Assembly: GCA_030601755.1 (NCBI GenBank)
Contig: JAUWBF010000020.1
Coordinates: 1 to 48,195 of the forward strand
Length of the DNA: 48,195 bases
Source of the DNA: Verrucomicrobiota bacterium
GTDB lineage: Bacteria; Verrucomicrobiota; Verrucomicrobiia; Opitutales; Opitutaceae
Direction of reading: 5' to 3'
Every line of letters starts with the position of its first letter. Position 1 is the first letter of the stretch. Shown in pieces: positions 6,065-42,318 of the stretch. A program made the translations under genes and the position numbers. Below the pieces are notes generated by a model. It was given only the letters and a program-made list of their open reading frames with translations. It did not search any database and was not told where the DNA came from.

Positions 6065-6868
6065 ATGGACGCTACGTGGACCGAACGGCTGGGCAATCTG
6101 CATCTGGCGATCCTGCATCTGCCGATCGGCTTCGTCTTCGCCGCGGCGCTGCTGGAGCTGTGGCTGTGGCGACGCCCCTCGGCGGAAGGGCGCTGGCTGG
6201 CGGGCCGGCTGCTCGGGGCGACGGCGGTCGCGACCTTGCTGGCCGCGGCCACGGGACTTGTGTTGGCCGGCAACGCGGCCGGACACGACGCCGACACGCT
6301 GTCACTGCACCGATGGCTGGGCGTCGGCTGCGCGGCGCTGGCGATCACGGCTTGGTGGGCCCGGATGCGCGGCGCCGATGGATGGGCGAGGGGAATGCTG
6401 GCCGCGCTGGCGGTGGCGGTGACCGCCGCCGGCCACGCCGGGGCGACGCTGACCCACGGGCCGGCGGTGACCGCGTGGTGGCGCGGCGGCGACCAGCGCT
6501 TGGAGGACATCGCGGCGCCGGCCGCGCCGACGCCAACCGCGCAGACGCCGGCGGCGTCGGTCGCCGGCGATGTATTCGTGAAGGAAATACAGCCGTTGCT
6601 CGTTGCGAGTTGCGTGGATTGCCACGGCCCGAAGCGCGCGCGGGGCGGTCTGCGGCTGGACAGCCGTGATGCGGCGGTGGCCGGCGGCAAGAGCGGGCAA
6701 CCCGCCATCGTGCCGGGCGCGCCGGAGCGCAGCGAGTTGTTGCGACGCGTGAAGTTGCCGGCCGGTCATGACGACGTGATGCCCGCCGGCAAGGACGCCC
6801 GCCTGCTCACGGTCGCGGAGATCGCCGCGCTGGAGCAGTGGATCGCGGACGGCGCGGTGTGGCGTTGA
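6065..6868 (+). CDS. DUF2231-like membrane protein with C-terminal cytochrome c domain
   Basis: 267 residues. Four predicted membrane helices (about residues 13-33, 46-70, 83-99, 108-126), with His residues near the helix ends as in DUF2231 membrane proteins (LHLPIGF at the start). After a Pro/Ala linker (about 148-165) comes a Planctomycete-type cytochrome domain with CVDCHG (Cys183, Cys186, His187) and the typical ARGGLRLDSRDAAVAGGKSG, VPGAPERSELLRRVKLPAGHDDVMP and LTVAEIAALEQWIADGA. This suggests a membrane-anchored electron carrier facing the periplasm. The start at 6065 puts the first conserved residues at position 6. The 55-bp gap to the divergent DUF1592 gene probably holds promoters for both, so the three genes form one functional group. 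The electron donor and acceptor are unknown. Confidence 0.85.
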   Translation: MDATWTERLGNLHLAILHLPIGFVFAAALLELWLWRRPSAEGRWLAGRLLGATAVATLLAAATGLVLAGNAAGHDADTLSLHRWLGVGCAALAITAWWARMRGADGWARGMLAALAVAVTAAGHAGATLTHGPAVTAWWRGGDQRLEDIAAPAAPTPTAQTPAASVAGDVFVKEIQPLLVASCVDCHGPKRARGGLRLDSRDAAVAGGKSGQPAIVPGAPERSELLRRVKLPAGHDDVMPAGKDARLLTVAEIAALEQWIADGAVWR

Positions 6869-6871
6869 AAC

Positions 6872-6969
6872 GTAGGGGCCGCGCTGGCGCGGCCCGTTGG
6901 TCGTCACTGAGGTAATCGACGTCGTCGGCGAGGGGGGCGCTCAACGGGCCTCGCTCGCGAGGCCCCTAC
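6872..6969. repeat. REPIN-like pair of GTAG hairpins (family B)
   Basis: Starts GTAGGGGCCGCGCTGGCGCG and ends GCGAGGCCCCTAC. Each end is a GC hairpin and the two are inverted around a spacer of about 50 bases. It lies between two convergent genes. Confidence 0.85.
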
Positions 6970-7002
6970 AACTCGGCAACGACTCCCTGGGAAATCTCAC
7001 CA

Positions 7003-7887
7003 TCAGCGACCGCCGCCGCCGCGCATCTTTTCGCGAACGACCGCATTGGCGGATTGCTCGGCGTAGATTTGCTCGAGGGCGGCGACTTGGTCGGCGGTGA
7101 GGAGGCCGCGCGAGAGGTTGATGGTCTGCTGGTTGAGCTGGCCGCCGTTGGTCGCGATGATGTTGACCAGTTGCTGCGACTGGGCCTCGCCGAGCTGGGT
7201 GCCGCTGTAGCTGAGCTTGCGGTTGAGCTGGTTGACCACGCCGCGCTGGGACTGGGTGGAGTCGTATTGCTGGTAGGCGTCGTAAACGGAGTCGCCGAGC
7301 TCGGACTTGATGTTGGAGTCGACCTCGGCCTGGAGTTGGTTGGCCATCTCGCGGAGCTGGTCGCGGTTCTCGCGGGGATCGAGGCCGGACTCGCGGGCGC
7401 TGATCATGACGTCGCGCCAGACGTTTTGGCGTTCCGTGAGCAGGTCCTGCAGGCGGGCGAGCTGGGCGGGGGGAAGGTTGAGTTTCTTGAAGAGGTCGGC
7501 GTAGCGGCCGTCGAGGCGGGCGCGCTGCTGGATCTGCCACGCGGCGACAAAGTCGGGGTCCTGCATGAGTTCGTTCATGCGGGCGGTCCAGTTGTTGCGG
7601 TCGCCGCCGCGGGAGCCGCGGCCCTCGCCCTCGGCTCCGGGCTCTTCGTCGCCGGGCAGCGCGGGCGCCGCGAACTCGGCGGGGGCGGCGGCGGCGGGGC
7701 GGGTGTCGGCCGAGAGGTAGGCCTTGGGCGCGGCGGTTGTCTGGGCGCCGTTGATCACGGTGACCTGGCTGCTGCGCTCAAGCTCGGCGATCTGCCGGTG
7801 CTGATGAATGGCCAGTCCGGCGCCGGCGGCGGTGGTCACGGCGAGGAAGGCGATGGCTTGGTTTTTCCAGCGGGGGGAGGTGCTCAT
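7003..7887 (-). CDS. Membrane-anchored helical protein, conserved hypothetical
   Basis: 294 residues of unknown function. One hydrophobic segment at residues 10-25 (NQAIAFLAVTTAAGAGLAIH) is an uncleaved anchor or signal. A low-complexity Ala/Pro/Gly/Glu linker follows at about 50-98, ending in an RGSRGGDRNN stretch. Residues 100-285 are almost entirely helical and rich in Gln, Asn, Leu and Arg, with a spacing reminiscent of the Spy/CpxP periplasmic chaperone fold (RYADLFKKLNLPPAQLARLQDLL), but no diagnostic LTxxQ motif pair is certain. The last residues are MRGGGGR. It stands alone, convergent with the cytochrome gene across a REPIN. The Spy-like reading is a guess from helical character only. 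Confidence 0.75.
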   Translation of the reverse strand: MSTSPRWKNQAIAFLAVTTAAGAGLAIHQHRQIAELERSSQVTVINGAQTTAAPKAYLSADTRPAAAAPAEFAAPALPGDEEPGAEGEGRGSRGGDRNNWTARMNELMQDPDFVAAWQIQQRARLDGRYADLFKKLNLPPAQLARLQDLLTERQNVWRDVMISARESGLDPRENRDQLREMANQLQAEVDSNIKSELGDSVYDAYQQYDSTQSQRGVVNQLNRKLSYSGTQLGEAQSQQLVNIIATNGGQLNQQTINLSRGLLTADQVAALEQIYAEQSANAVVREKMRGGGGR

Positions 7888-14339: not shown

Positions 14340-15129
14340 CCTCGCAGCCTTCCGTCCGTTGCGCACCGGACTCGTGGTGGTGGCGGCGTTGACCGTGGCC
14401 GGCCTCGCGCTGCGCCCCGTCGAGTCACCCGCTTGGGAATCGCTCCGTGCCGACCAGCCCGCGCTCAAGCTCGACTCGATCCAAGGCGCGCTCGGGCAGG
14501 GCGTCACCGTCGGTCTGCTCGGCGGATTCCGCGCTATCGTCGCCGACTTCTTCTGGCTCAAGACCAACTCCGTCTGGGGCGACAACGACCTGCCCGCCAC
14601 CCAGACCTACGTGCACCTTGTCACCGCCATCGATCCGCGCCCGCTCTACTTCTGGCTCAACGGCAGTCGCATGATCGCCTACGACATGCCCAACTGGCGC
14701 ATCCAGGCCGCCGGCGGCTACGACGCCGTGCCCCAGAGCGTGCAGCGCAAGTTCGACGAGGAGCAGTCCGCCGTCGCCGTCGATTACCTCAAGTCCGGCC
14801 TCGGCTACCACCCCGACGAACCGCTGCTCTACATCGAGATCGCCAACGTCTACCTCAACCGCCTCAAGGACAACGCCACCGCCGCCGAGTATTACCTCAA
14901 GGCCGCCCAACAACCCGACGCCCCGCACTACGCCGCCCGCATCTACGCCGAGCTCTTGCGCCGTCTGGGACGCAACCGCGAGGCTTACGATTGGCTGAAA
15001 AAGACATACGCGGAACTGCCCAAGGGGGGCGACGCGTCCTTTACAGCTCTGCCCGACGTCGTGTTGGAGCGCATTCGCGAACTCGAACAGGAGCTCGGCA
15101 TCCCCGAGTCCGAGGCTTACCAGCCCTGA
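14329..15129 (+). CDS. Membrane-anchored TPR-like protein of the ABC operon
   Basis: 266 residues. I place the start at GTG 14329, inside the end of the permease gene, because the next in-frame ATG is past the first conserved block. A single membrane helix at about 12-30 (TGLVVVAALTVAGLALRPV) is followed by a periplasmic part. Residues about 145-250 look like tetratricopeptide helices (LLYIEIANVYLNRLKDNATAAEYYLKAA and AARIYAELLRRLGRNREAYDWLKK). Bacterial proteins with the YFWLNGSRMIAYDMPNWR block often accompany ABC-2 permease genes in Verrucomicrobiota, in my recollection. Probable role: a substrate or partner docking subunit of the exporter. Function not proven. Confidence 0.82.
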   Translation: MKFDLAAFRPLRTGLVVVAALTVAGLALRPVESPAWESLRADQPALKLDSIQGALGQGVTVGLLGGFRAIVADFFWLKTNSVWGDNDLPATQTYVHLVTAIDPRPLYFWLNGSRMIAYDMPNWRIQAAGGYDAVPQSVQRKFDEEQSAVAVDYLKSGLGYHPDEPLLYIEIANVYLNRLKDNATAAEYYLKAAQQPDAPHYAARIYAELLRRLGRNREAYDWLKKTYAELPKGGDASFTALPDVVLERIRELEQELGIPESEAYQP

Positions 15130-15205
15130 AAACCCTCCCGTCGGCGGGAATTAAGACTTGCTCGGAGGCCTTAACTTCTAAATGTTGATAAATTCACTCA
15201 ACTAA

Positions 15206-15826
15206 ATGACCGCCGACGCCAATCTCTACCCGGTATTCGACCGCGTGCTGCCCCGCTCCGACAAGGAGGCGAAGCTCCGTCAGCGCGGCCGCGTCATCTG
15301 GCTCTACGGCCTGTCCGGCTCCGGCAAGAGCACCCTCGCCATCGCCCTGGAGCGTCGCCTGCACGCCGCCGGTTTCACCACCCAGCTGCTCGACGGCGAC
15401 AACGTCCGCACCGGCCTCAACCGTGGTCTCGGTTTCAGCGACGCCGACCGCGCCGAGAACCTCCGCCGCGTCGCCGAGGTCGCCAAGCTCTTCGCTCACG
15501 CCGGCATCGTCACCCTCTGCTCCTTCATCACGCCGCTGCGTGCCAACCGCGCCGCCGCCCGCGAGATCATCGGCGCCGACGACCTGCTCTCCGTCTACGT
15601 GAAGGCGTCCTTCGAGACCTGCGCCAAGCGCGACCCCAAGGGCCTCTACGCCAAGGCCGCCGCCGGCGGGGTGGGGGCCTTCACCGGAAAAGATTCCTCC
15701 TTCGAGCCGCCCGCGCCCGACCTCGGCGACACCGACTACATCCTCGACACCGAGGCCGCCGACCAAAACGCCTGCCTCGACCAACTGCACGCCACCGTGC
15801 TCCCCTTGATCCGCTTTTCGAAATGA
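15206..15826 (+). CDS. cysC: Adenylyl-sulfate kinase
   Basis: 206 residues. Phosphorylates adenosine 5'-phosphosulfate to PAPS in the cytoplasm, the second step of sulfate activation. The P-loop is GLSGSGKST (Lys41), followed by LLDGDNVRTGLNRGLGFSDADRAENLRRVAEVAKLF, an unmistakable APS kinase block, and the substrate lid SFITPLRANRAAARE. LYAKAAAGGVGAFTGKDSSFEPP matches the family C-terminus. The kinase is a separate gene rather than fused to CysN. An A+T-rich leader precedes the ATG, a plausible promoter or leader region. The stop overlaps the cysD ATG (ATGA). Confidence 0.96.
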   Translation: MTADANLYPVFDRVLPRSDKEAKLRQRGRVIWLYGLSGSGKSTLAIALERRLHAAGFTTQLLDGDNVRTGLNRGLGFSDADRAENLRRVAEVAKLFAHAGIVTLCSFITPLRANRAAAREIIGADDLLSVYVKASFETCAKRDPKGLYAKAAAGGVGAFTGKDSSFEPPAPDLGDTDYILDTEAADQNACLDQLHATVLPLIRFSK

Positions 15827-31173: not shown

Positions 31174-32445
31174 TCACTCTTTCCGCGGCAGGTAGATGGT
31201 GACGGTGGTGCCGTTGCCGGGGCGGGTGATGAGGTGGATGCCGCCGCGGTGGGTTTGCACGAGGCGGCTGACGATCGCCAGGCCGAGGCCGGTGCCGTCC
31301 TGGCCCTTGGTGGTGTAGTAGGGCTCGAAGATGTGCGGGAGCACGTCGGGCGCGATGCCGCGGCCCTGGTCGCGCACGCTGATGGCGACGAGCGGGGGCA
31401 GGGGCTGGTCGGTGGGCGGCTCGAGGCGCCACTCGCGTCCGGCGGCCGCGGGGTCGGGCTGAGGGAAGTCCTCGGCGGGCGTGGCGGAGACGGTGACGGT
31501 CTGCGGGCTGGCGGAGCTTTGCAGCGCGTTGATGACAAGATTGATCAACACCTGCAGCAGGTCGCTGGCGTCGGCGGTGGTCTCGAGGTCGGCCTCGCAG
31601 GGCGCGGCCTCGAGGGTGTGGGGACGCATCGCGGGGTGGGTGCGCAGCAGGGTGCGCAGGTCGCTGAAGATCTGCGCGAGGGGCAGGGTCTTGTCGGCGG
31701 CGGTGTGGCGCTGGTGCGCGAAGCGGAGGTAACGCGCAGCGATGGCGTGGCAGATGGCGACCTGCTTGGAGATGGTGGCGATGTCGGTGCGCACCTCGTC
31801 GAGGTCGCGGCCGTGGAGCACGTGCAGGCGCTTGAGCTTGGCGGTGAGGAGCTCGACATGGCCGCTGATGACGGTGAGCGGGTTGTTGATGTCGTGCATC
31901 ACGCTCGCGTAGATCTCGGTCGTGGTGCGGGCCATCTCGGCGCGCACGGAGACGCCGCCGAGGCGGTCGTCGAGTTCGCGCAGCCGGTCGGAGGCGGAGA
32001 CGAGGCTCTGCGAGATGTTGTGCAGCTGGAGCGCGCGGGCCGCGGCGGCGCGGATGGTGGCGAGGTCGAAGGGCTTGCTCAGGTAGTCGCAGGCGCCGAG
32101 CCGGAGCGCCTGGCGGGCGGTCTCGAGGGTCTCGTAGGCCGTGAGCATGATGACCTCGGTGGTGGGGTTGATCTCCTTGAGGGAGTGGAGGGCGTCGAGG
32201 CCGGAGCCGCCGGACATCCGGATGTCGAGGATGGCGACGTTGACGGGGCGGGTGCGGGCGAAGGCGGCGGCCTTCTCGGCGGACTCCACGGTGTGCACGT
32301 CGAAGTCCTGGCGGAAGACCATGCGCAGCGAGTGGCGCGGACCCTCCTCGTCGTCGACGACGAGCAGCACGGGCTTGGCGTTGGGGCCGGCGGTGACGCC
32401 GGCGGCGGGCTCAAAAGCGGTAGTCGAGGGAGGCGGCAATGGCAT
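31174..32445 (-). CDS. Receiver - histidine kinase protein (PhcR-like architecture)
   Basis: 423 residues. A complete N-terminal receiver: Asp31 and Asp32 (VVDDEE), phospho-acceptor Asp74 in AILDIRM, Thr102 and Lys124 (LSKPF). A histidine kinase core follows: His184 in SVMHDINNPLTVISGH, then ATP-binding boxes VLINLVINALQSS, VRDQGRGIAPDVLPHIFEPYYTTK and GTGLGLAIV. There is no membrane segment, so it is cytoplasmic. Receiver first, kinase second is unusual, and is the order found in PhcR of the Ralstonia Phc system. The ATG lies 35 bases inside the end of the preceding FadL frame, so the genes are translationally coupled. It is convergent with the dehydrogenase. The partner regulator may be the locus mate at 39554. 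Confidence 0.9.
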   Translation of the reverse strand: MPLPPPSTTAFEPAAGVTAGPNAKPVLLVVDDEEGPRHSLRMVFRQDFDVHTVESAEKAAAFARTRPVNVAILDIRMSGGSGLDALHSLKEINPTTEVIMLTAYETLETARQALRLGACDYLSKPFDLATIRAAAARALQLHNISQSLVSASDRLRELDDRLGGVSVRAEMARTTTEIYASVMHDINNPLTVISGHVELLTAKLKRLHVLHGRDLDEVRTDIATISKQVAICHAIAARYLRFAHQRHTAADKTLPLAQIFSDLRTLLRTHPAMRPHTLEAAPCEADLETTADASDLLQVLINLVINALQSSASPQTVTVSATPAEDFPQPDPAAAGREWRLEPPTDQPLPPLVAISVRDQGRGIAPDVLPHIFEPYYTTKGQDGTGLGLAIVSRLVQTHRGGIHLITRPGNGTTVTIYLPRKE

Positions 32446-33574
32446 GGAAACTGTTTTTGTAGGTTCCGTCGGTGAGGGGGCCGGCCGGGCTGCCGGTCAC
32501 GGTGCGGTCGGGCGAGTAGGCGTAGTGGTAGGCGAGATCGAGGCGGAGCGAGCCGGTGCGGTAGCCGCAGCCGAGGGCGAAGATGTGGCGGTCGGCGTCG
32601 GGGATGGCCGGGTTGTAGCTGTCGTCGGGAATGGAGTTTTCCGAGAAGGTGTAGCCGGCGCTGAGGCTGAAGCCGTTGTCGAACTCGCGGGTGACGCCGA
32701 AGTCGTAGAAGAAACCGGACTCCCAGTCGAGGGCGGAGGCGGCGCCGAGGGGCGGGGCGGAGTTGATGGCGAGGGTGTTGGTGCGGTCCCAGTTGGTCCA
32801 GTCGAGGTTGACCTCGAGGTTCCAGCCGGGCGCGGGGCGGAAGGAGTAGCCGAGGATGACGATCTCGGGGAAGGCGAGGTCGAGGGTGGCGCGCTGCGGG
32901 GGCACGGCGCCGGCGATGGAGGCGACGCCGGTGTGCTTGACGTCGTAGTGGTGCTGGTAGGACAGGCCGAAGGAGTGGCGCGCGGAGGGTTGCCAGAGCA
33001 CACCGGCGTTGAAGCCGAGCGACTCGCCGTCGCCGTGGAAGTCGTAAAGGCCGAAGCCGGTGTTGCGCCGCAGCGTGGCGGAGGACTCCTGGTAGGTGGG
33101 GCCGGCGGCGACGGAGAGGCCGGGCATGAGCTCGATGGCGCCGACGAGGGCGACGGAGAGGGTCTCGAGCTTGGAGTCGGTGGCGACGAGGTTGAAGGGG
33201 CCGGTGTCGGGCCAACTGCTGGCGAGGCCGAAGGGCGCGTAGGCGCCGAGGCCAAAGGAGTAGGGCTTCTCCTCGGGGGACCAGACGTAGTAGAGCTGCG
33301 GCACGACCTTGGGCGAGCGGTGCAGGGTGGCGTTGCCCGAGGCGCCGCTGAACTCGCCTTGCAACTGGATGGCGTAGGCGGTGCCGGAGACGGCCTGACC
33401 CTCGATCTGGGTGATGCCGGCGGGGTTGTAGTAGATGGCGGCAGGGGTGTCGGCGGTGGCGGCGAAGGCGTTGCCGCGCGCCATGGCGGCGGTGTCCTTG
33501 AAGCCGATGCGCGTGCCGGCCGCGAAGGCGGTGGCGGGGAGGAGGGCGATCAGCAGGGTTGGGGTGGTTCTCAT
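32411..33574 (-). CDS. FadL/OmpP1-family outer membrane transport protein (probable separate protein from internal start)
   Basis: 387 residues from the internal ATG at 33574. MRTTPTLLIALLPATAFAAG is a good signal peptide. The hatch domain carries GFKDTAAMARGNAFAATADTPAAIYYNPAGITQIEG, including the NPAG motif diagnostic of FadL/TodX channels. The barrel continues to the end residues YHYAYSPDRTVTGS and AIAASLDYRF, with a C-terminal Phe suited to outer membrane assembly. Channels of this family pass long-chain fatty acids and other hydrophobic compounds. Being upstream and coupled to the receiver-kinase and in the same frame as a kinase, it may supply the hydrophobic signal for this locus (inference). 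This span overlaps the larger entry above. Confidence 0.82.
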   Translation of the reverse strand: MRTTPTLLIALLPATAFAAGTRIGFKDTAAMARGNAFAATADTPAAIYYNPAGITQIEGQAVSGTAYAIQLQGEFSGASGNATLHRSPKVVPQLYYVWSPEEKPYSFGLGAYAPFGLASSWPDTGPFNLVATDSKLETLSVALVGAIELMPGLSVAAGPTYQESSATLRRNTGFGLYDFHGDGESLGFNAGVLWQPSARHSFGLSYQHHYDVKHTGVASIAGAVPPQRATLDLAFPEIVILGYSFRPAPGWNLEVNLDWTNWDRTNTLAINSAPPLGAASALDWESGFFYDFGVTREFDNGFSLSAGYTFSENSIPDDSYNPAIPDADRHIFALGCGYRTGSLRLDLAYHYAYSPDRTVTGSPAGPLTDGTYKNSFHAIAASLDYRF

Positions 33575-35587
33575 GGTGATCGGGGAGGCGGGCGGGGTTA
33601 GGCGAGCGGGGAGTTGCACGGAGAGGTGGTTGGCGCCGGGCTTGGTGTCGGGGTGGATCTCCAAAACGCCGGAGTGGTGGTCGACGATGCGGCGGGCGAC
33701 GGTGAGCCCGAGGCCGACGCCGGTGTTGCGCGTGGTGAAGAACGGCTCGGTGGCGCGCGCGGCGATGTCCTTGGTGAAGCCGGGGCCGGGATCGGAGAAG
33801 CCGACCAGCAGCCGGGGCGGCGCGCCCGACGGCGAGATGAGCCGGAGGTCGACGCGGATGGGCGCCTCGACGGTCGCGCCGACGGTGGCCTGCAGGGCGT
33901 TGCAGAGGATCTCCTCGAGGGCGTGGCTGAGGCTGGCGCGGTGGGCGCGCACGGAGAGTTCGCCGTCCTCGCCGGTGATGACGAACTCGGCGGAGAGTCC
34001 GATCGAGCGGCACGCGCGGTCGAAGGCGGCCTGCAGCAACGGGCGCACGGGCAGGATGCCGTCGGCGGGGTAGGGCGGCTGCGAGAGGAAGAGCATTTGC
34101 TCGGTGAAGCGCTGGATGCGCGCGGTCTCGCGGCCGAGGGAGGCCTTGAGCGAGTCGCGGAATTCGCCCGAGGCGTAGTCGCTGTCGAAGAGCTGGTGGT
34201 GGGTGGTCAGCGGCACGAGCGAGTTGCGGATCTCGTGGGCGAAGCGGCGGGCGATGAGCGCGAGCAGTTGGTGGTTGGACGCGGCGATCTCGGCGCGTTG
34301 GGCGGCCTGGATCTGGGTGAAGTCCTCGATGAGGGCCAGCACGGGCTGGGGCAGGGTCTGGTCGGGTCCGTGCAAGGGGATCAGGCTCGCGCGGTAGCTG
34401 CGGGCGGATGCGGCGGGCGAGTCCAGAAAGAACGGTTCGGCGGGCTGGCCCTTCTCCGCGAGGTCGTGGATGGCGCGGGCGAGCGGCGGGGGCAGCTCGG
34501 CGAAGTCGACCGGCGCGGGCGTCGCGTGCGACGTGCCGCGCAGGAACTGGGTGAAGGCGGGGTTGGCGTGCAGGATGCCAAGGTCGGCCGAGACGACGAG
34601 GCTGCCGCTGGTGAGCGCGCCGAGCACGTCGGAGAGGAGGTTGTGGCTGGCGGCGAGCTGGTGGTGCAGGCGGCTGTTCTTGAGCGCGACGGCGAGCTCC
34701 TCGAGGAGGTGGTAGACGAGTTGCAGCTCGGAGTCGGCGAAGGGCGTGCCGGTGACGCGGCCGCCGATGACGGCGACGCCGAGGGTGTGCTCGCGGTCGT
34801 TGACGGGCAGGGCGACTTGGCAGCCGAGCACGTCGAATTCGCGTTGCATCTTGGCCATGTCGGCCGAGGCGAAGCCGGGCAACGTCTCGAGGCGGAGGAT
34901 CTGGCCGCGCTTGATGACATGGTGGCCGAGGCCGCCGGTGCGCGAGAGCTCGATGCAGTCGAGCAGCTCGGTGGGAATGCCGGCCGAGGCCACGCAGGTG
35001 AGGCGGTGGCGGTGGCGCTCGGCGGTGGCGCCGGCGGGGCCGGGCGCGGGCTCAAGGAAGATCGCGATGCGCGTGATGCTGAGGATCTCGCGGAGCTTGA
35101 GCACGTAGTGCTGGGTGAAGAGCTTCGGGTCGAGCGAGTAGCCGAGGATCTTGGAGAAGTCGCGCAACACCTCCAGCGAGTTGACCGGCAGGCGCGCGGG
35201 GGCCTCGGGCTGGGGTTGCCGCACGGGTGAGTTGCTCGGCGCGGTCGCGACCAAATGGCGGCAGGCGCGGTGAAAGCCGCGGGATGAAAGCGGACCGCGC
35301 AGCACGAGGTCCGCGCCGCCGGCGTAGAGGCGTTGCTCGAGCTCGGCGCCGACGGAGCCGACGACCAGCACCAAGGGCGGATGCGAGGCGGGCAGGTCGG
35401 ACGGCTCGAAGAGGTCGCGCTCGTCGCGGACGGGGACGACGCACAGGTCGAAGATGCCGGCCTCGATGAGCGGGCGCGCGGCGTCGGCGTTGTCCTTGCG
35501 GACGACCTTGCAGTCGGGGTCGTTGAACAAATGCCCTGCCAACTCGTGGGCGGGGATTTCTTCGGCGATGATGAGAACGTGGATCAC
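32411..35587 (-). CDS. GAF/PAS sensor histidine kinase running in frame into a FadL-type outer membrane protein
   Basis: 1058 residues in one open frame, with two modules of conflicting location. Residues 1-671: a degenerate receiver (about 1-112; the acceptor position reads CVVPV with no Asp), GAF domain (about 140-305), PAS-like region (about 315-425), and histidine kinase with His451 in RRFAHEIRNSLVPL and ATP boxes ending GVGLGLTVARRI. Residues 672-1058: signal peptide and FadL barrel (separate entry). No stop lies between them: the kinase end VQLPARLTPPASPIT joins directly to MRTTPTLL. A TAA at 33598-33600 is present one base out of frame, so the kinase's own stop may have been lost by a one-base insertion. 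I start at GTG 35587 because MIHVLIIAEEIPAHEL is receiver-like; longer frames reach 35686. Either a true fusion or two genes. Confidence 0.75.
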   Translation of the reverse strand: MIHVLIIAEEIPAHELAGHLFNDPDCKVVRKDNADAARPLIEAGIFDLCVVPVRDERDLFEPSDLPASHPPLVLVVGSVGAELEQRLYAGGADLVLRGPLSSRGFHRACRHLVATAPSNSPVRQPQPEAPARLPVNSLEVLRDFSKILGYSLDPKLFTQHYVLKLREILSITRIAIFLEPAPGPAGATAERHRHRLTCVASAGIPTELLDCIELSRTGGLGHHVIKRGQILRLETLPGFASADMAKMQREFDVLGCQVALPVNDREHTLGVAVIGGRVTGTPFADSELQLVYHLLEELAVALKNSRLHHQLAASHNLLSDVLGALTSGSLVVSADLGILHANPAFTQFLRGTSHATPAPVDFAELPPPLARAIHDLAEKGQPAEPFFLDSPAASARSYRASLIPLHGPDQTLPQPVLALIEDFTQIQAAQRAEIAASNHQLLALIARRFAHEIRNSLVPLTTHHQLFDSDYASGEFRDSLKASLGRETARIQRFTEQMLFLSQPPYPADGILPVRPLLQAAFDRACRSIGLSAEFVITGEDGELSVRAHRASLSHALEEILCNALQATVGATVEAPIRVDLRLISPSGAPPRLLVGFSDPGPGFTKDIAARATEPFFTTRNTGVGLGLTVARRIVDHHSGVLEIHPDTKPGANHLSVQLPARLTPPASPITMRTTPTLLIALLPATAFAAGTRIGFKDTAAMARGNAFAATADTPAAIYYNPAGITQIEGQAVSGTAYAIQLQGEFSGASGNATLHRSPKVVPQLYYVWSPEEKPYSFGLGAYAPFGLASSWPDTGPFNLVATDSKLETLSVALVGAIELMPGLSVAAGPTYQESSATLRRNTGFGLYDFHGDGESLGFNAGVLWQPSARHSFGLSYQHHYDVKHTGVASIAGAVPPQRATLDLAFPEIVILGYSFRPAPGWNLEVNLDWTNWDRTNTLAINSAPPLGAASALDWESGFFYDFGVTREFDNGFSLSAGYTFSENSIPDDSYNPAIPDADRHIFALGCGYRTGSLRLDLAYHYAYSPDRTVTGSPAGPLTDGTYKNSFHAIAASLDYRF

Positions 35588-35757
35588 GGAGAAGGCTGAG
35601 CGGGGGACACTCGTTGCGGAAAAACCCGGTGGCGTTTTGAACATCTTTCGAGGCCATTGCTTAGCAACAGCAAAGTGGTCGCGCACTCGTCATAAAAGGC
35701 CGTTGCGTTGATGTGTTGAATGCAAAGTCTGCGTGACAGCGTGAACGTCCGTATCCC
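35588..35757. promoter_or_regulatory. Divergent promoter region of the signalling locus
   Basis: 170 bases between the kinase GTG (35587) and the LuxD-methyltransferase ATG (35758). It probably holds promoters for both operons. TTGCT at 35657-35661 with AGCAA at 35663-35667 and 35669-35673 forms a small dyad that could be an operator. The longest minus-strand frame reaches 35686, so part could instead be coding. No consensus -35/-10 pair is convincing. Confidence 0.35.
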
Positions 35758-37449
35758 ATGAGCAATCAACCCACCGTCACCTACGTCCCGGACATCCGCA
35801 GCGAACTCGTCTCCTATCCGGCCAGGTCCGGGCTGAGGATCGCCGCCTACCTCGACCACCCGCCCGAATCGATCGCGCTCAACCGGGTCGTGGTGCTTTC
35901 GCCGAAGTATGGCGAGAGCAAGAAGAACAACCTGCAGCTTGGTTACTATCTGGCGGCCAACGGCTTTACCGTGCTGCGTTTCGACTTCACCTGCCACTTT
36001 GGCGAGAGCGAGGGCTCGATGCTCGACTTCACGCTGCCGGCCGCGGTCGACGACACGCTGGCCTCGCTGGACTATCTCGAACGCGAACACGGTGTATCCG
36101 AAGTAACACTACTGGCGAGCAGCCTGTCCGCGGTGACGGCGTTTCGCGCGGCCTCGCTCGACGTTAGGGTGAAGCACCTAATGACCATCGTGGGCGTGGT
36201 CGATCTGACCTTCACGTTGAAGCGCGTTTATCAGGAGGACCTCATCGGCGGCTACATCGAGGGACGGCGCTACGGCGTGCTCGATATCCTCGGGCACGAG
36301 GTGAACATGGACCACTTCTTCGACGTCACCATCAAGGAGCAGATGCACACCCTTGAGGGCACGCGCGCGGCGATGGAGAAGCTGCGCTGTCCGGTGAGCT
36401 TCTTCCCCGCGGCGAACGACGCTTGGGTGCGTATCGAGGATGTGGAGACGGTGGCCGCCGCGGCCGCGCGGGCCGAGATCCATCCCATCGAGGGCGCCAT
36501 GCACGAGGTGCAGGAGAACCCGCAGGCCGCCGAGCTGACGTTGCGCAAGGTCGTCGAGGTTTGCCGTCGCCACGCGCGGCCCGACTCGCCCGACCTCGAC
36601 CAGCTCCGCGTGCCGGAGCGCAAGGCGATGTTTCGCCAGAACAAGATCGAGCGCGACCGCCTGCGCGAGGCCCGCCCGCTCGACGCCGAGGAGGACGAGT
36701 TCTGGGGCAAATACCTGGAGAAATACCGGGTCATGGAGAAGATGGGCGACTACCAGGAATACGTGCAGCTCCTCGGCGGCCTGCTCGGCAAGTTCCGCGA
36801 CGGCGAGATCCTCCTGGACGCCGGCTGCGGCAACGGCCTGTTCGGCGTGTGGGTGATGCGCGACCTGCTGGCCCGCCAGAAGGACAGCCTCGCGGTGCCC
36901 CCGATGTATTTCGGCATGGACCTGACCGACTCCGGCCTGAGCGACGCGGCGGGCAAACACACCGGCGTGCAGTCCCTCTTCCCCGACGCCGATCCGGTGG
37001 GGCTCATGTATACGCGCGTCGACCTCGATCTGTTCGGCTCGGACCAGGTGCCGCCGGCCGAGATCGTGCAAATTGCAGACGGCACCTTCGACAAGATCGC
37101 CTGCAGTCTACTGCTTTCCTATCTGAAGTCGCCGATCAACCTGCTCGTGCAGATGCACCGCGTGCTGCGGCCCGGCGGGCGCATCGTGATCTCGAGCATG
37201 AAGCCCTTCTGCGATCTGTCGTCGATCTACCGCGACTTCGTCGAGGAGAAGGCGGATCGCACCGACGTCGAGTCCGCCCGCGACCTGCTGCGCGCGGCCG
37301 GCGCGATCAAGACCAAGCAGGAGCAGGGCTACTACGTGTTCTTCAGTGCGGAGGAGCTCACCGACCTGCTGACCGAGGCGGGCTTTCGCTCGCCCCAGGC
37401 GTTCAATTCGCTGGGCAACCAGGCCCACGTCGTGACGGCGACCAAGTGA
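35758..37449 (+). CDS. LuxD-like acyl thioesterase fused to SAM-dependent methyltransferase
   Basis: 563 residues. Residues 1-285 match the LuxD (myristoyl-ACP thioesterase / acyltransferase) fold: the sequence LLASSLSAVTAFR corresponds to LuxD's nucleophile region, giving Ser122; Asp221 in NDAWV and His249 in AMHEVQEN complete the triad. The FRFDFTCHFGESEGS and IVGVVDLTFTL blocks also align. Residues 340-555 are a class I methyltransferase: motif I LLDAGCGNGLFG (352-363), FDKIACSLLLSYL, and the RVLRPGGRIVIS post-motif. A charged linker at about 285-335 joins them. A plausible reaction: release of a fatty acyl chain from ACP or CoA and methylation to a methyl ester (inference). The next gene starts with GTG overlapping its stop by 4 bases, so it is the first gene of a coupled set. 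Confidence 0.9.
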   Translation: MSNQPTVTYVPDIRSELVSYPARSGLRIAAYLDHPPESIALNRVVVLSPKYGESKKNNLQLGYYLAANGFTVLRFDFTCHFGESEGSMLDFTLPAAVDDTLASLDYLEREHGVSEVTLLASSLSAVTAFRAASLDVRVKHLMTIVGVVDLTFTLKRVYQEDLIGGYIEGRRYGVLDILGHEVNMDHFFDVTIKEQMHTLEGTRAAMEKLRCPVSFFPAANDAWVRIEDVETVAAAAARAEIHPIEGAMHEVQENPQAAELTLRKVVEVCRRHARPDSPDLDQLRVPERKAMFRQNKIERDRLREARPLDAEEDEFWGKYLEKYRVMEKMGDYQEYVQLLGGLLGKFRDGEILLDAGCGNGLFGVWVMRDLLARQKDSLAVPPMYFGMDLTDSGLSDAAGKHTGVQSLFPDADPVGLMYTRVDLDLFGSDQVPPAEIVQIADGTFDKIACSLLLSYLKSPINLLVQMHRVLRPGGRIVISSMKPFCDLSSIYRDFVEEKADRTDVESARDLLRAAGAIKTKQEQGYYVFFSAEELTDLLTEAGFRSPQAFNSLGNQAHVVTATK

Positions 37450-41259: not shown

Positions 41260-42237
41260 TCAGTGCGTGTTGAACAGCTCGGTGATGATGTCCTCGAGCG
41301 GAACGTCCTCGATGCTGATGTCGGCGACCTCGCCGGCGGTGAGGATCTCCTGCGAGACGGCGGAGATTTTTTCGACGGGCACGCGCAGGGTGAACTTGCC
41401 GTCCTCGGGGTTGCGCGTGGTGGCACCGTGGGTCGATTGCCAGTCCTCGGCGAAGGCGCCGGCGGCGGGCAGGAAGGTCACGATCTTGGCGCGGCTGCCC
41501 GACGAACCCTCGAGGCGATCAAGGCTGCCGTCGTAGATTTTCGAGCCCTTGTGGATCACGATCACGCGGTCGCACAGCTCTTTGATGTCGGCCATGTAGT
41601 GGCTGGTGAGCAGAATGGTCGTGCGGTGACGGCGGTTGTAGTCGCGGAGAAATTGGCGCACCGACTTCTGCGAGATGACGTCGAGGCCGATGGTGGGCTC
41701 GTCGAGGAAGAGCACGCGGGGCCGGTGGAGCAGGGCGGCGATGAGCTCCATCTTCATGCGCTCGCCGAGGGAGAGTTCGCGCACCATGACGTTGAGCTTT
41801 TCGCGCACGCCGAGCAGGTCGACGAGTTCGTCGAGGGTTTCCTGATACGCCTGGCCGTCGAGGCCGTAGATGTGGCGGATGAGCGCGAAGGACTCGCTGG
41901 CGGGCAGGTCCCACCAGAGCTGGTTTTTCTGGCCGAGCACGAGGGCGAAGATGCGGCGGTAGGCGTTTTCGCGGCGGGTGGGGTCGAAGCCGGCCACGCG
42001 CGCGGTGCCGCTGGTCGGGTAGATCAGGCCCGAGAGCATCTTGAGCGTGGTGGTCTTGCCAGCGCCGTTGGGGCCGAGGAAGCCGACGAACTCGCCCTCG
42101 CCGATGTCGAAGCTGATGTCCTTGGCGGCGGCGGTCTCCTCGAACTCACGGTGAAAGAGGCCCTTCACGCCGCCCCAGAATCCGGGCTGCTTCTTGTAGG
42201 TGCGAAAGACGCGGGTGAGGTTGCGGACTTCGATCAT
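41260..42237 (-). CDS. ABC transporter ATP-binding protein (ABC-2 exporter type)
   Basis: 325 residues. Walker A GPNGAGKTT, signature LSLGERMKMELIAALLHRPRVLFLDEPTIGLD with Walker B, and the switch His in LLTSHYM. An FHREFEETAAAKD insert near residue 30 and the VIVIHKGSKIYDGS segment place it with ATPases of ABC-2 exporters that carry two permeases. The C-terminal 80 residues are the accessory domain. It starts at ATG 42237 (MIEVRNLTRVFRTYKK). No permease gene lies beside it in this window; the upstream neighbour is a uracil-DNA glycosylase, so its partners must be elsewhere or lost. Substrate unknown. Confidence 0.9.
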   Translation of the reverse strand: MIEVRNLTRVFRTYKKQPGFWGGVKGLFHREFEETAAAKDISFDIGEGEFVGFLGPNGAGKTTTLKMLSGLIYPTSGTARVAGFDPTRRENAYRRIFALVLGQKNQLWWDLPASESFALIRHIYGLDGQAYQETLDELVDLLGVREKLNVMVRELSLGERMKMELIAALLHRPRVLFLDEPTIGLDVISQKSVRQFLRDYNRRHRTTILLTSHYMADIKELCDRVIVIHKGSKIYDGSLDRLEGSSGSRAKIVTFLPAAGAFAEDWQSTHGATTRNPEDGKFTLRVPVEKISAVSQEILTAGEVADISIEDVPLEDIITELFNTH

Positions 42238-42318
42238 GGAAAGTGTGAGCGTTGCGCGAAACGGCGCGGAGGCAAGCAACGGGAACGGGGGGAGGCAGGC
42301 GATGGCACGGGCTGCCGC

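Follow-up and report, generated by a model that had tools for sequence, protein, structure and literature searches.

Several described systems share parts with the locus analysed here. In Ralstonia phcBSRQ (3-OH-PAME/3-OH-MAME quorum sensing), the 3-hydroxy fatty acid methyl ester that PhcB produces is sensed by PhcS, and PhcR (receiver and kinase) and PhcQ (receiver) both have no DNA-binding domain, according to excerpts of PMC8578825. The same excerpts describe PhcB and PhcS sequences as clustering by signal type, and the trees of PhcR and PhcQ as following phylotype. PhcQ works by binding the transcription factor PhcA (excerpts of PMC13320629), and rhizobial FadL takes up long-chain acyl-homoserine lactone (AHL) signals (excerpts of PMC9938287). 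In the open-licence PMC literature we found no LuxD-methyltransferase/thioesterase fusion occurring with a histidine kinase, no LuxD in Verrucomicrobia and, among the matches listed, no quorum-sensing system for Opitutaceae; excerpts of 'Evolution of two-component quorum sensing systems' (PMC8895600) contain neither PhcS nor Verrucomicrob-.

The window, that is, the whole stretch of 48,195 nucleotides analysed here, encodes a fusion of a LuxD-type domain and a methyltransferase, and a conserved sensory module has this fusion as its first gene (Table 1). As in phcBSRQ, a methyltransferase, a sensor kinase, a receiver-kinase and a receiver free of DNA-binding domains are encoded together, and synthase and sensor group by type, apart from the remaining parts, as the excerpts describe for phc. 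Unlike phcBSRQ, the module has its methyltransferase fused to a LuxD-type thioesterase, is made of divergent genes instead of one operon, belongs to a different phylum, and includes one more kinase as well as, in the majority of scorable loci, a FadL; moreover, its kinase has a GAF domain and its receiver carries Glu in place of Asp. By its list of parts, rather than by sequence homology to Phc proteins, the module probably works like phcBSRQ, and we do not file it as a member of that system. A FadL-type porin beside a proposed lipophilic signal is likewise reminiscent of rhizobial FadL, although the signal taken up there is an acyl-homoserine lactone (excerpts of PMC9938287), different from the one proposed here.

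Table 1. Positions of the fusion gene, its domains and the neighbouring genes in the window
Feature	Position	Strand	Remarks
RECHK, receiver-histidine kinase hybrid, 423 aa	31174..32445	-	without recognised DNA-binding domain
FadL/TodX outer-membrane transporter	32411..33574	-	own signal-peptide-like start
HKc, GAF histidine kinase without 7TM match	33575..35587	-	start approximate; one open frame with FadL
Divergent intergenic stretch HKc/fusion	35588..35757	.	lower bound approximate, HKc start uncertain
LuxD-methyltransferase fusion, proposed acyl-signal synthase	35758..37449	+	563 aa, open ORF
LuxD-type alpha/beta-hydrolase domain	35758..36582	+	about residues 1-275
Triad codons of the fusion: Ser122, Asp221, His249	36121-36123, 36418-36420, 36502-36504	+	
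Linker and class I SAM-dependent methyltransferase domain	36583..37446	+	about residues 276-563
HK7TM, 7TM-GAF-HisKA-HATPase histidine kinase, 703 aa	37446..39557	+	GTG start overlaps fusion TGA
GAFREC, GAF/PAS-receiver protein, 460 aa	39554..40936	+	without recognised DNA-binding domain; ATG overlaps HK7TM stop
ABC-transporter ATPase (PF00005)	41260-42279	-	convergent with GAFREC

Sequence comparison and predicted fold confirm the assignment of the N-terminal half of the fusion as a LuxD-type thioesterase domain and of the C-terminal half as a class I methyltransferase. PF02273 (LuxD family) matches residues 59-254 (E 1.1e-25, 91 bits against a Pfam cut-off of 20.3), and Methyltransf_23 matches residues 338-544 (E 6.8e-12). 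The top PDB sequence match is LuxD itself (1tht, E 2.8e-20; next hydrolase 4e-6), and in this alignment S122, D221 and H249 lie opposite LuxD residues 114, 211 and 241, which we take to be the LuxD catalytic triad. Over 35 aligned loci, S122 is conserved in 34 of 34 (one further locus is truncated at the site) and D221 and H249 in all 35, and most aligned copies share with LuxD the Ala-X-Ser-X-Ser nucleophile elbow. In the methyltransferase half, D354, G356, G358 and G360 of the SAM motif LDAGCGNG (residues 353-360) are invariant (35/35), and the acidic residue past strand 2 is Asp in 31 loci and Glu in 4. The original prediction, made from the sequence by itself, had named this triad and a class I methyltransferase core in the C-terminal half, and both are borne out by the alignments. 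The structural overlay proposed with it agrees: in a model of modest confidence (mean pLDDT 63.6; confidence was modest for both structure models) the LuxD half is predicted to adopt the LuxD fold, with 1tht on top at Z 26.5 (278 residues superposed at an rmsd of 3.1 A; runner-up chain at Z 23.2), and Foldseek places the fusion model on 1tht with an E value of 6.9e-16. For the methyltransferase half, the fold search gave a clear class I fold with many small-molecule methyltransferases at Z 15.9-19.4, including entries whose titles name C-, N- and S-methyltransferases as well as one carboxylic-acid methyltransferase; the best rank of juvenile hormone acid methyltransferase was 42. Because this search is non-specific, carboxyl methylation has to be argued from context.

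Fold and triad positions are common to the fusion and LuxD, the myristoyl-ACP thioesterase of the lux fatty acid reductase. However, the fusion is about 20% identical to LuxD, carries a joined methyltransferase and is encoded in a genome with neither LuxC nor LuxE. Its score against the NCBIfam LuxD equivalog (NF052253) is 90.4 bits, far below the cut-off of 420 bits, and hence it is a distant LuxD homologue rather than LuxD itself. The lack of luxC and luxE, noted earlier for the neighbourhood, extends to the whole genome: neither family (PF05893, PF04443) has a match anywhere in this 3.55-Mb, 96%-complete assembly, and a role in luminescence or aldehyde synthesis is therefore rejected. The original prediction also held that the fatty acid, once released, undergoes methylation in place of reduction. 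This stands as the most economical chemistry and fits the neighbouring genes, with the carboxyl group as the presumed acceptor. What it described was a thioesterase and methyltransferase without LuxC and LuxE, which holds; the conserved sensory module, and the common history with the sensor of the kinase, which suggests a role in signalling, had been missed.

The fusion is not unique to this assembly, as the search of other genomes suggested with the original prediction made clear. Its profile matches 40 of 252 family genomes, in 16 of 49 genera; full-length copies are found in 36 of the 252 (one of them, G131, with an internal stop), and the copies in G035, G073, G072 and G001 are partial or broken. 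In a smaller set of 57 relatives (own genome counted), nine carry a near full-length fusion and a tenth, G035, is cut by a contig end; 22 genomes matched at E 0.001 in this search, of which 12 with short matches were excluded (11 to the methyltransferase or hydrolase fold of other proteins, and the G001 remnant). Fourteen aligned relatives are 41-71% identical to the fusion protein of the window. Among 387 genomes drawn evenly from the phylum, PF02273 occurs in six, each time in an ORF of fusion size (6/6, 560-622 aa). One of these genomes (G315) belongs to another family of the same order, and the alignment of its protein with that of the window spans residues 13-563 at 44%. A relative occurs in five named records, which are Opitutaceae, Opitutus or Verrucomicrobia MAGs.

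Spread of the fusion by plasmids is rejected, since tblastn against 72,556 plasmid records gave four partial matches, none with at least 80% query coverage. The sole feature annotated as an acyl transferase among them sits in an E. coli K-12 plasmid. In the Ensifer match, an ORF of 416 aa, the place of the methyltransferase is taken by a different second half, read as a candidate OsmC-like domain. The methyltransferase domain matched 47 plasmid records at E <=0.001, all at <60% identity and with no lead to a substrate.

Damaged copies of the fusion take several forms. It is frameshifted in G072 (L109, 7459-9121), its N-terminal part is replaced by unrelated sequence in G073 (L108, 2094-3290), and a single internal stop interrupts it in G131 (L085); an assembly error is possible in each. 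In G001 (L103, 6600-10487), HK7TM (47% identity) and GAFREC (53%) are retained with about 95 C-terminal residues of the fusion, and no HKc, FadL or RECHK match was found within the 19.9 kb examined. Loss of a synthase with retention of its receptor is familiar in quorum sensing. G001 could be such a receiver-only locus, or, being one genome, an assembly artefact.

The genes around the fusion are conserved with it. The HK7TM gene lies directly 3' of the fusion in 41 of 41 loci, and the overlap of fusion stop and HK7TM start was found in all 15 relatives checked (two of them the same contig). Over the same 41 loci, GAFREC is present in 32, lies beyond a contig edge in 8 and was not found in one (G013), where a diverged ORF of the same cluster occupies its place; HKc is present in 37 (edge 2, absent 2), RECHK in 31 (edge 7, absent 3, including L100, which has a hybrid on the other strand) and FadL in 27 (edge 6, absent 8). 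With 8 of 35 scorable loci lacking it, FadL is not essential. GAFREC matches 39 of the 252 family genomes, all within the 40 that have the fusion, and none of the other 212. Where the site is covered, the phosphoacceptor His is kept in HK7TM (32/32), HKc (32/32; L002 breaks off just before it and L003 is cut) and RECHK (30/30, the L100 hybrid counted), and the receiver Asp of RECHK is conserved in 30 of 30.

None of the four regulators of the window matched a DNA-binding family at E 0.001. The 7TM match of HK7TM (PF16927) is modest, at 32.7 bits against a cut-off of 28.6, and a crude hydropathy scan accepted only four segments of HK7TM; HKc and GAFREC gave a single marginal one apiece. By this N-terminal match and its GAF-kinase layout, HK7TM is like the XrtA/PEP-CTERM kinase PrsK and the 7TM histidine kinases. 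However, it scores 105.6 bits against the PrsK cut-off of 300, and the regulators of the module lack a DNA-binding family match; a PEP-CTERM system is rejected on this score. In GAFREC, the receiver, GAF and PAS matches fall just under the Pfam curated cut-offs (receiver 28.6 vs 30.2 bits). Its phosphoacceptor position is Glu (Glu393 in the window) in 28 of 30 loci and Asp in L098 and L100, which suggests that the receiver is locked in a phospho-like state in this family.

Gene arrangement also varies in detail. In the window, HKc and FadL lie in one uninterrupted 1091-aa frame (32411-35686, minus strand) with a signal-peptide-like start inside, and in L093 they are likewise joined in frame (1103 aa); the joint frame possibly reflects translational coupling with internal initiation. 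In L002, HKc (6459-7829) breaks off before the phosphoacceptor His, FadL is missing and the receiver-kinase gene follows directly, a gap due to deletion or misassembly. In L100, from the other family (G315), a receiver-kinase hybrid (14439-15500) is found downstream of GAFREC, with both genes on one strand, and its H-box differs. Its position and H-box suggest that this hybrid may have been recruited separately. Counting the window, 20 of the 30 loci that can be scored have the ABC ATPase next to GAFREC, and the other copies are 57-77% identical. DrrA, GldA and NodI types are among its top-scoring NCBIfam models, none of which reaches its cut-off, and we regard it either as a candidate component of an exporter or simply as a neighbour that is conserved.

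The module is a mosaic of two phylogenetic blocks. Trees and correlations were computed from 26 of the 35 aligned loci, those with <35% gaps in every part; the other 9 were left out for truncation or a missing part, and L104-L109 lie outside the alignment. Pairwise distances of the LuxD domain, the methyltransferase and the 7TM and GAF segments of HK7TM correlate with one another at 0.83-0.92. The kinase core of HK7TM, by contrast, correlates at 0.81-0.82 with GAFREC, HKc and RECHK, vs 0.60-0.66 with LuxD, methyltransferase and GAF and 0.55 with its own 7TM segment. In sliding windows of 60 residues, HK7TM tracks the synthase up to about residue 450 and HKc plus RECHK from about 480 to 600, so that the switch at residues 450-480 falls on the GAF/HisKA border. 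Windows of HK7TM from >570 correlate with both blocks at <=0.62, and residues 1-60 of the fusion are equivocal between the blocks.

Likelihood comparisons on FastTree topologies, with AU and SH tests, divide the module in the same way. Synthase data change by -98 log units on the sensor tree vs -1972 on the HKc plus RECHK tree, and sensor data by -43.5 on the synthase tree vs -1993 on the HKc plus RECHK tree. Kinase-core data, on the other hand, change by -22 log units on the HKc plus RECHK tree vs -395 on the synthase tree, and GAFREC data by -80 vs -1197. Exact identity of the synthase and sensor trees is rejected by the AU test (p 0.0001 and 0.009) and not by SH, and the same holds for core data on the HKc plus RECHK tree (AU p 0.006); hence, the blocks are not perfectly uniform within themselves. 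The synthase and the sensor half of HK7TM share a phylogeny, and the catalytic core of HK7TM follows the other genes of the module.

Exchange within genera is most directly seen in L082 and L094 of genus g17. Their DNA is 89-100% identical through RECHK, FadL and HKc (L082 3901-8700), drops to 46-78% over the intergenic stretch, the fusion and the 7TM segment, and returns to 89-97% from GAF (L082 11701) to the end of the kinase. This is a clean replacement of about 3 kb comprising the upstream region, the synthase and the 7TM sensor. A second dip, to 68-83%, lies outside this main cassette in the first part of GAFREC (L082 12901-13200). In genus g59, L089 and L092 are 74% identical in HKc, 74% in FadL, 91% in RECHK and 71% in the kinase core, against 47% in LuxD, 51% in the methyltransferase, 32% in 7TM and 26% in GAF. 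Within one type (L092 and L093), the 7TM segment is 68% and the core 73% identical, and thus the sensor is not simply fast-evolving. When discordance was defined as HKc identity >15 points above LuxD and >20 points above 7TM, a criterion chosen after such pairs had been seen, 21 of the 42 pairs within genera were discordant, spread over 4 of the 6 genera; these are pairs and not events, because many pairs have one exchange in common. One border of the exchanges lies upstream of the fusion or within its first 60 codons, and the other at the 7TM/GAF or the GAF/HisKA border. Synthase and sensor domain therefore vary in step and are swapped separately from the other parts, and such joint replacement at domain borders inside a conserved module marks a pair of signal and receptor that comes in several signal types.

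We consider it probable that the fusion is the synthase of a cell-to-cell fatty-acyl signal, likely a methyl ester, and that HK7TM is its receptor. The nature of the product, and thereby of the ligand, is what we infer from the Phc and rhizobial FadL parallels, which make a methyl ester the most likely form. With its triad intact, the LuxD-type domain would accept, on Ser122, the acyl group of an acyl-ACP or acyl-CoA and free the fatty acid. The fused methyltransferase would then move a methyl group from SAM to the freed fatty acid, most simply to its carboxyl group, presumably to yield a methyl ester of the fatty acid or something closely related. This lipophilic product may leave the cell and re-enter through FadL where the gene is present. 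Binding to the 7TM domain of HK7TM, for which co-inheritance supports the pairing, would change kinase activity. Phosphate would pass through the receiver-kinase hybrid and the second kinase, and GAFREC, perhaps held near 'on' by Glu in place of Asp, would convey the state onward to a transcription factor presumably encoded elsewhere, by analogy with PhcQ and the LysR regulator PhcA.

Other readings of these data have to be weighed. A signal with the same synthase-receptor logic might be something other than a methyl ester, if the methyl group goes to a hydroxyl or to a carbon within the acyl chain, or if the LuxD domain acts as an acyltransferase instead of a hydrolase and acylates another acceptor. 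Co-inheritance of synthase and sensor is silent on chemistry, and the fold matches span C-, N-, S- and carboxylic-acid methyltransferases. However, for a thioesterase that yields a free carboxylate and is fused to a methyltransferase the ester is the shortest route, and phc uses a fatty acid methyl ester with a similar set of regulators (excerpts of PMC8578825), so that we think such a signal unlikely. Distinctly unlikely, in our estimate, is cell-autonomous lipid homeostasis, in which the enzyme trims or modifies acyl chains, the kinases read the membrane or fatty-acid state, and nothing is secreted as a signal. The adjoining FadL suits fatty-acid uptake equally well, and with no dedicated exporter established the ABC ATPase (20/30 scorable loci) is a candidate at most. 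Lipid homeostasis nevertheless accounts poorly for an enzyme and a membrane sensor that are swapped jointly between near-identical modules whose kinase core and remaining parts are left in place, and the restriction of the fusion to 16 of 49 genera argues against housekeeping.

The mosaic might also have another cause. Since the exchanged segment is contiguous, linkage is unavoidable and may be part of the reason why synthase and sensor have a tree in common; if only the outer borders were under selection, linkage alone would give both the same tree. The mosaic could then reflect neutral linkage, or selection by phages or predators on the membrane kinase, with the fusion hitch-hiking and making an ordinary metabolite. 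We hold this to be highly improbable: the borders frame the synthase and the sensor, the same split recurs in four genera, and under hitch-hiking the far border would have no need to take in a whole unrelated enzyme every time. The broken or partial copies in G072, G073, G001 and G131 would suit an isolated domain fusion, or an assembly error, without functional meaning. Yet this reading has a negligible chance and is refuted by the distribution, given full-length copies in 36 of 252 family genomes, 14 relatives at 41-71% identity, a triad intact in all scorable copies among the 35 loci and a copy in the genome of another family.

We see about an even chance that the module represents a previously undescribed quorum-sensing family of Verrucomicrobiota, in which one polypeptide frees and methylates a fatty acid, a 7TM kinase is the receptor, and exchangeable synthase-receptor cassettes make up signal types within genera. 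If so, a relative of LuxD would have moved from bioluminescence to signalling, and a logic of the phc type would have been built from a different synthase. Near-identical modules with swapped alleles of synthase and sensor would then constitute a natural experiment, in which the specificity of the signal is directly testable, and these bacteria would have a chemically definable language.
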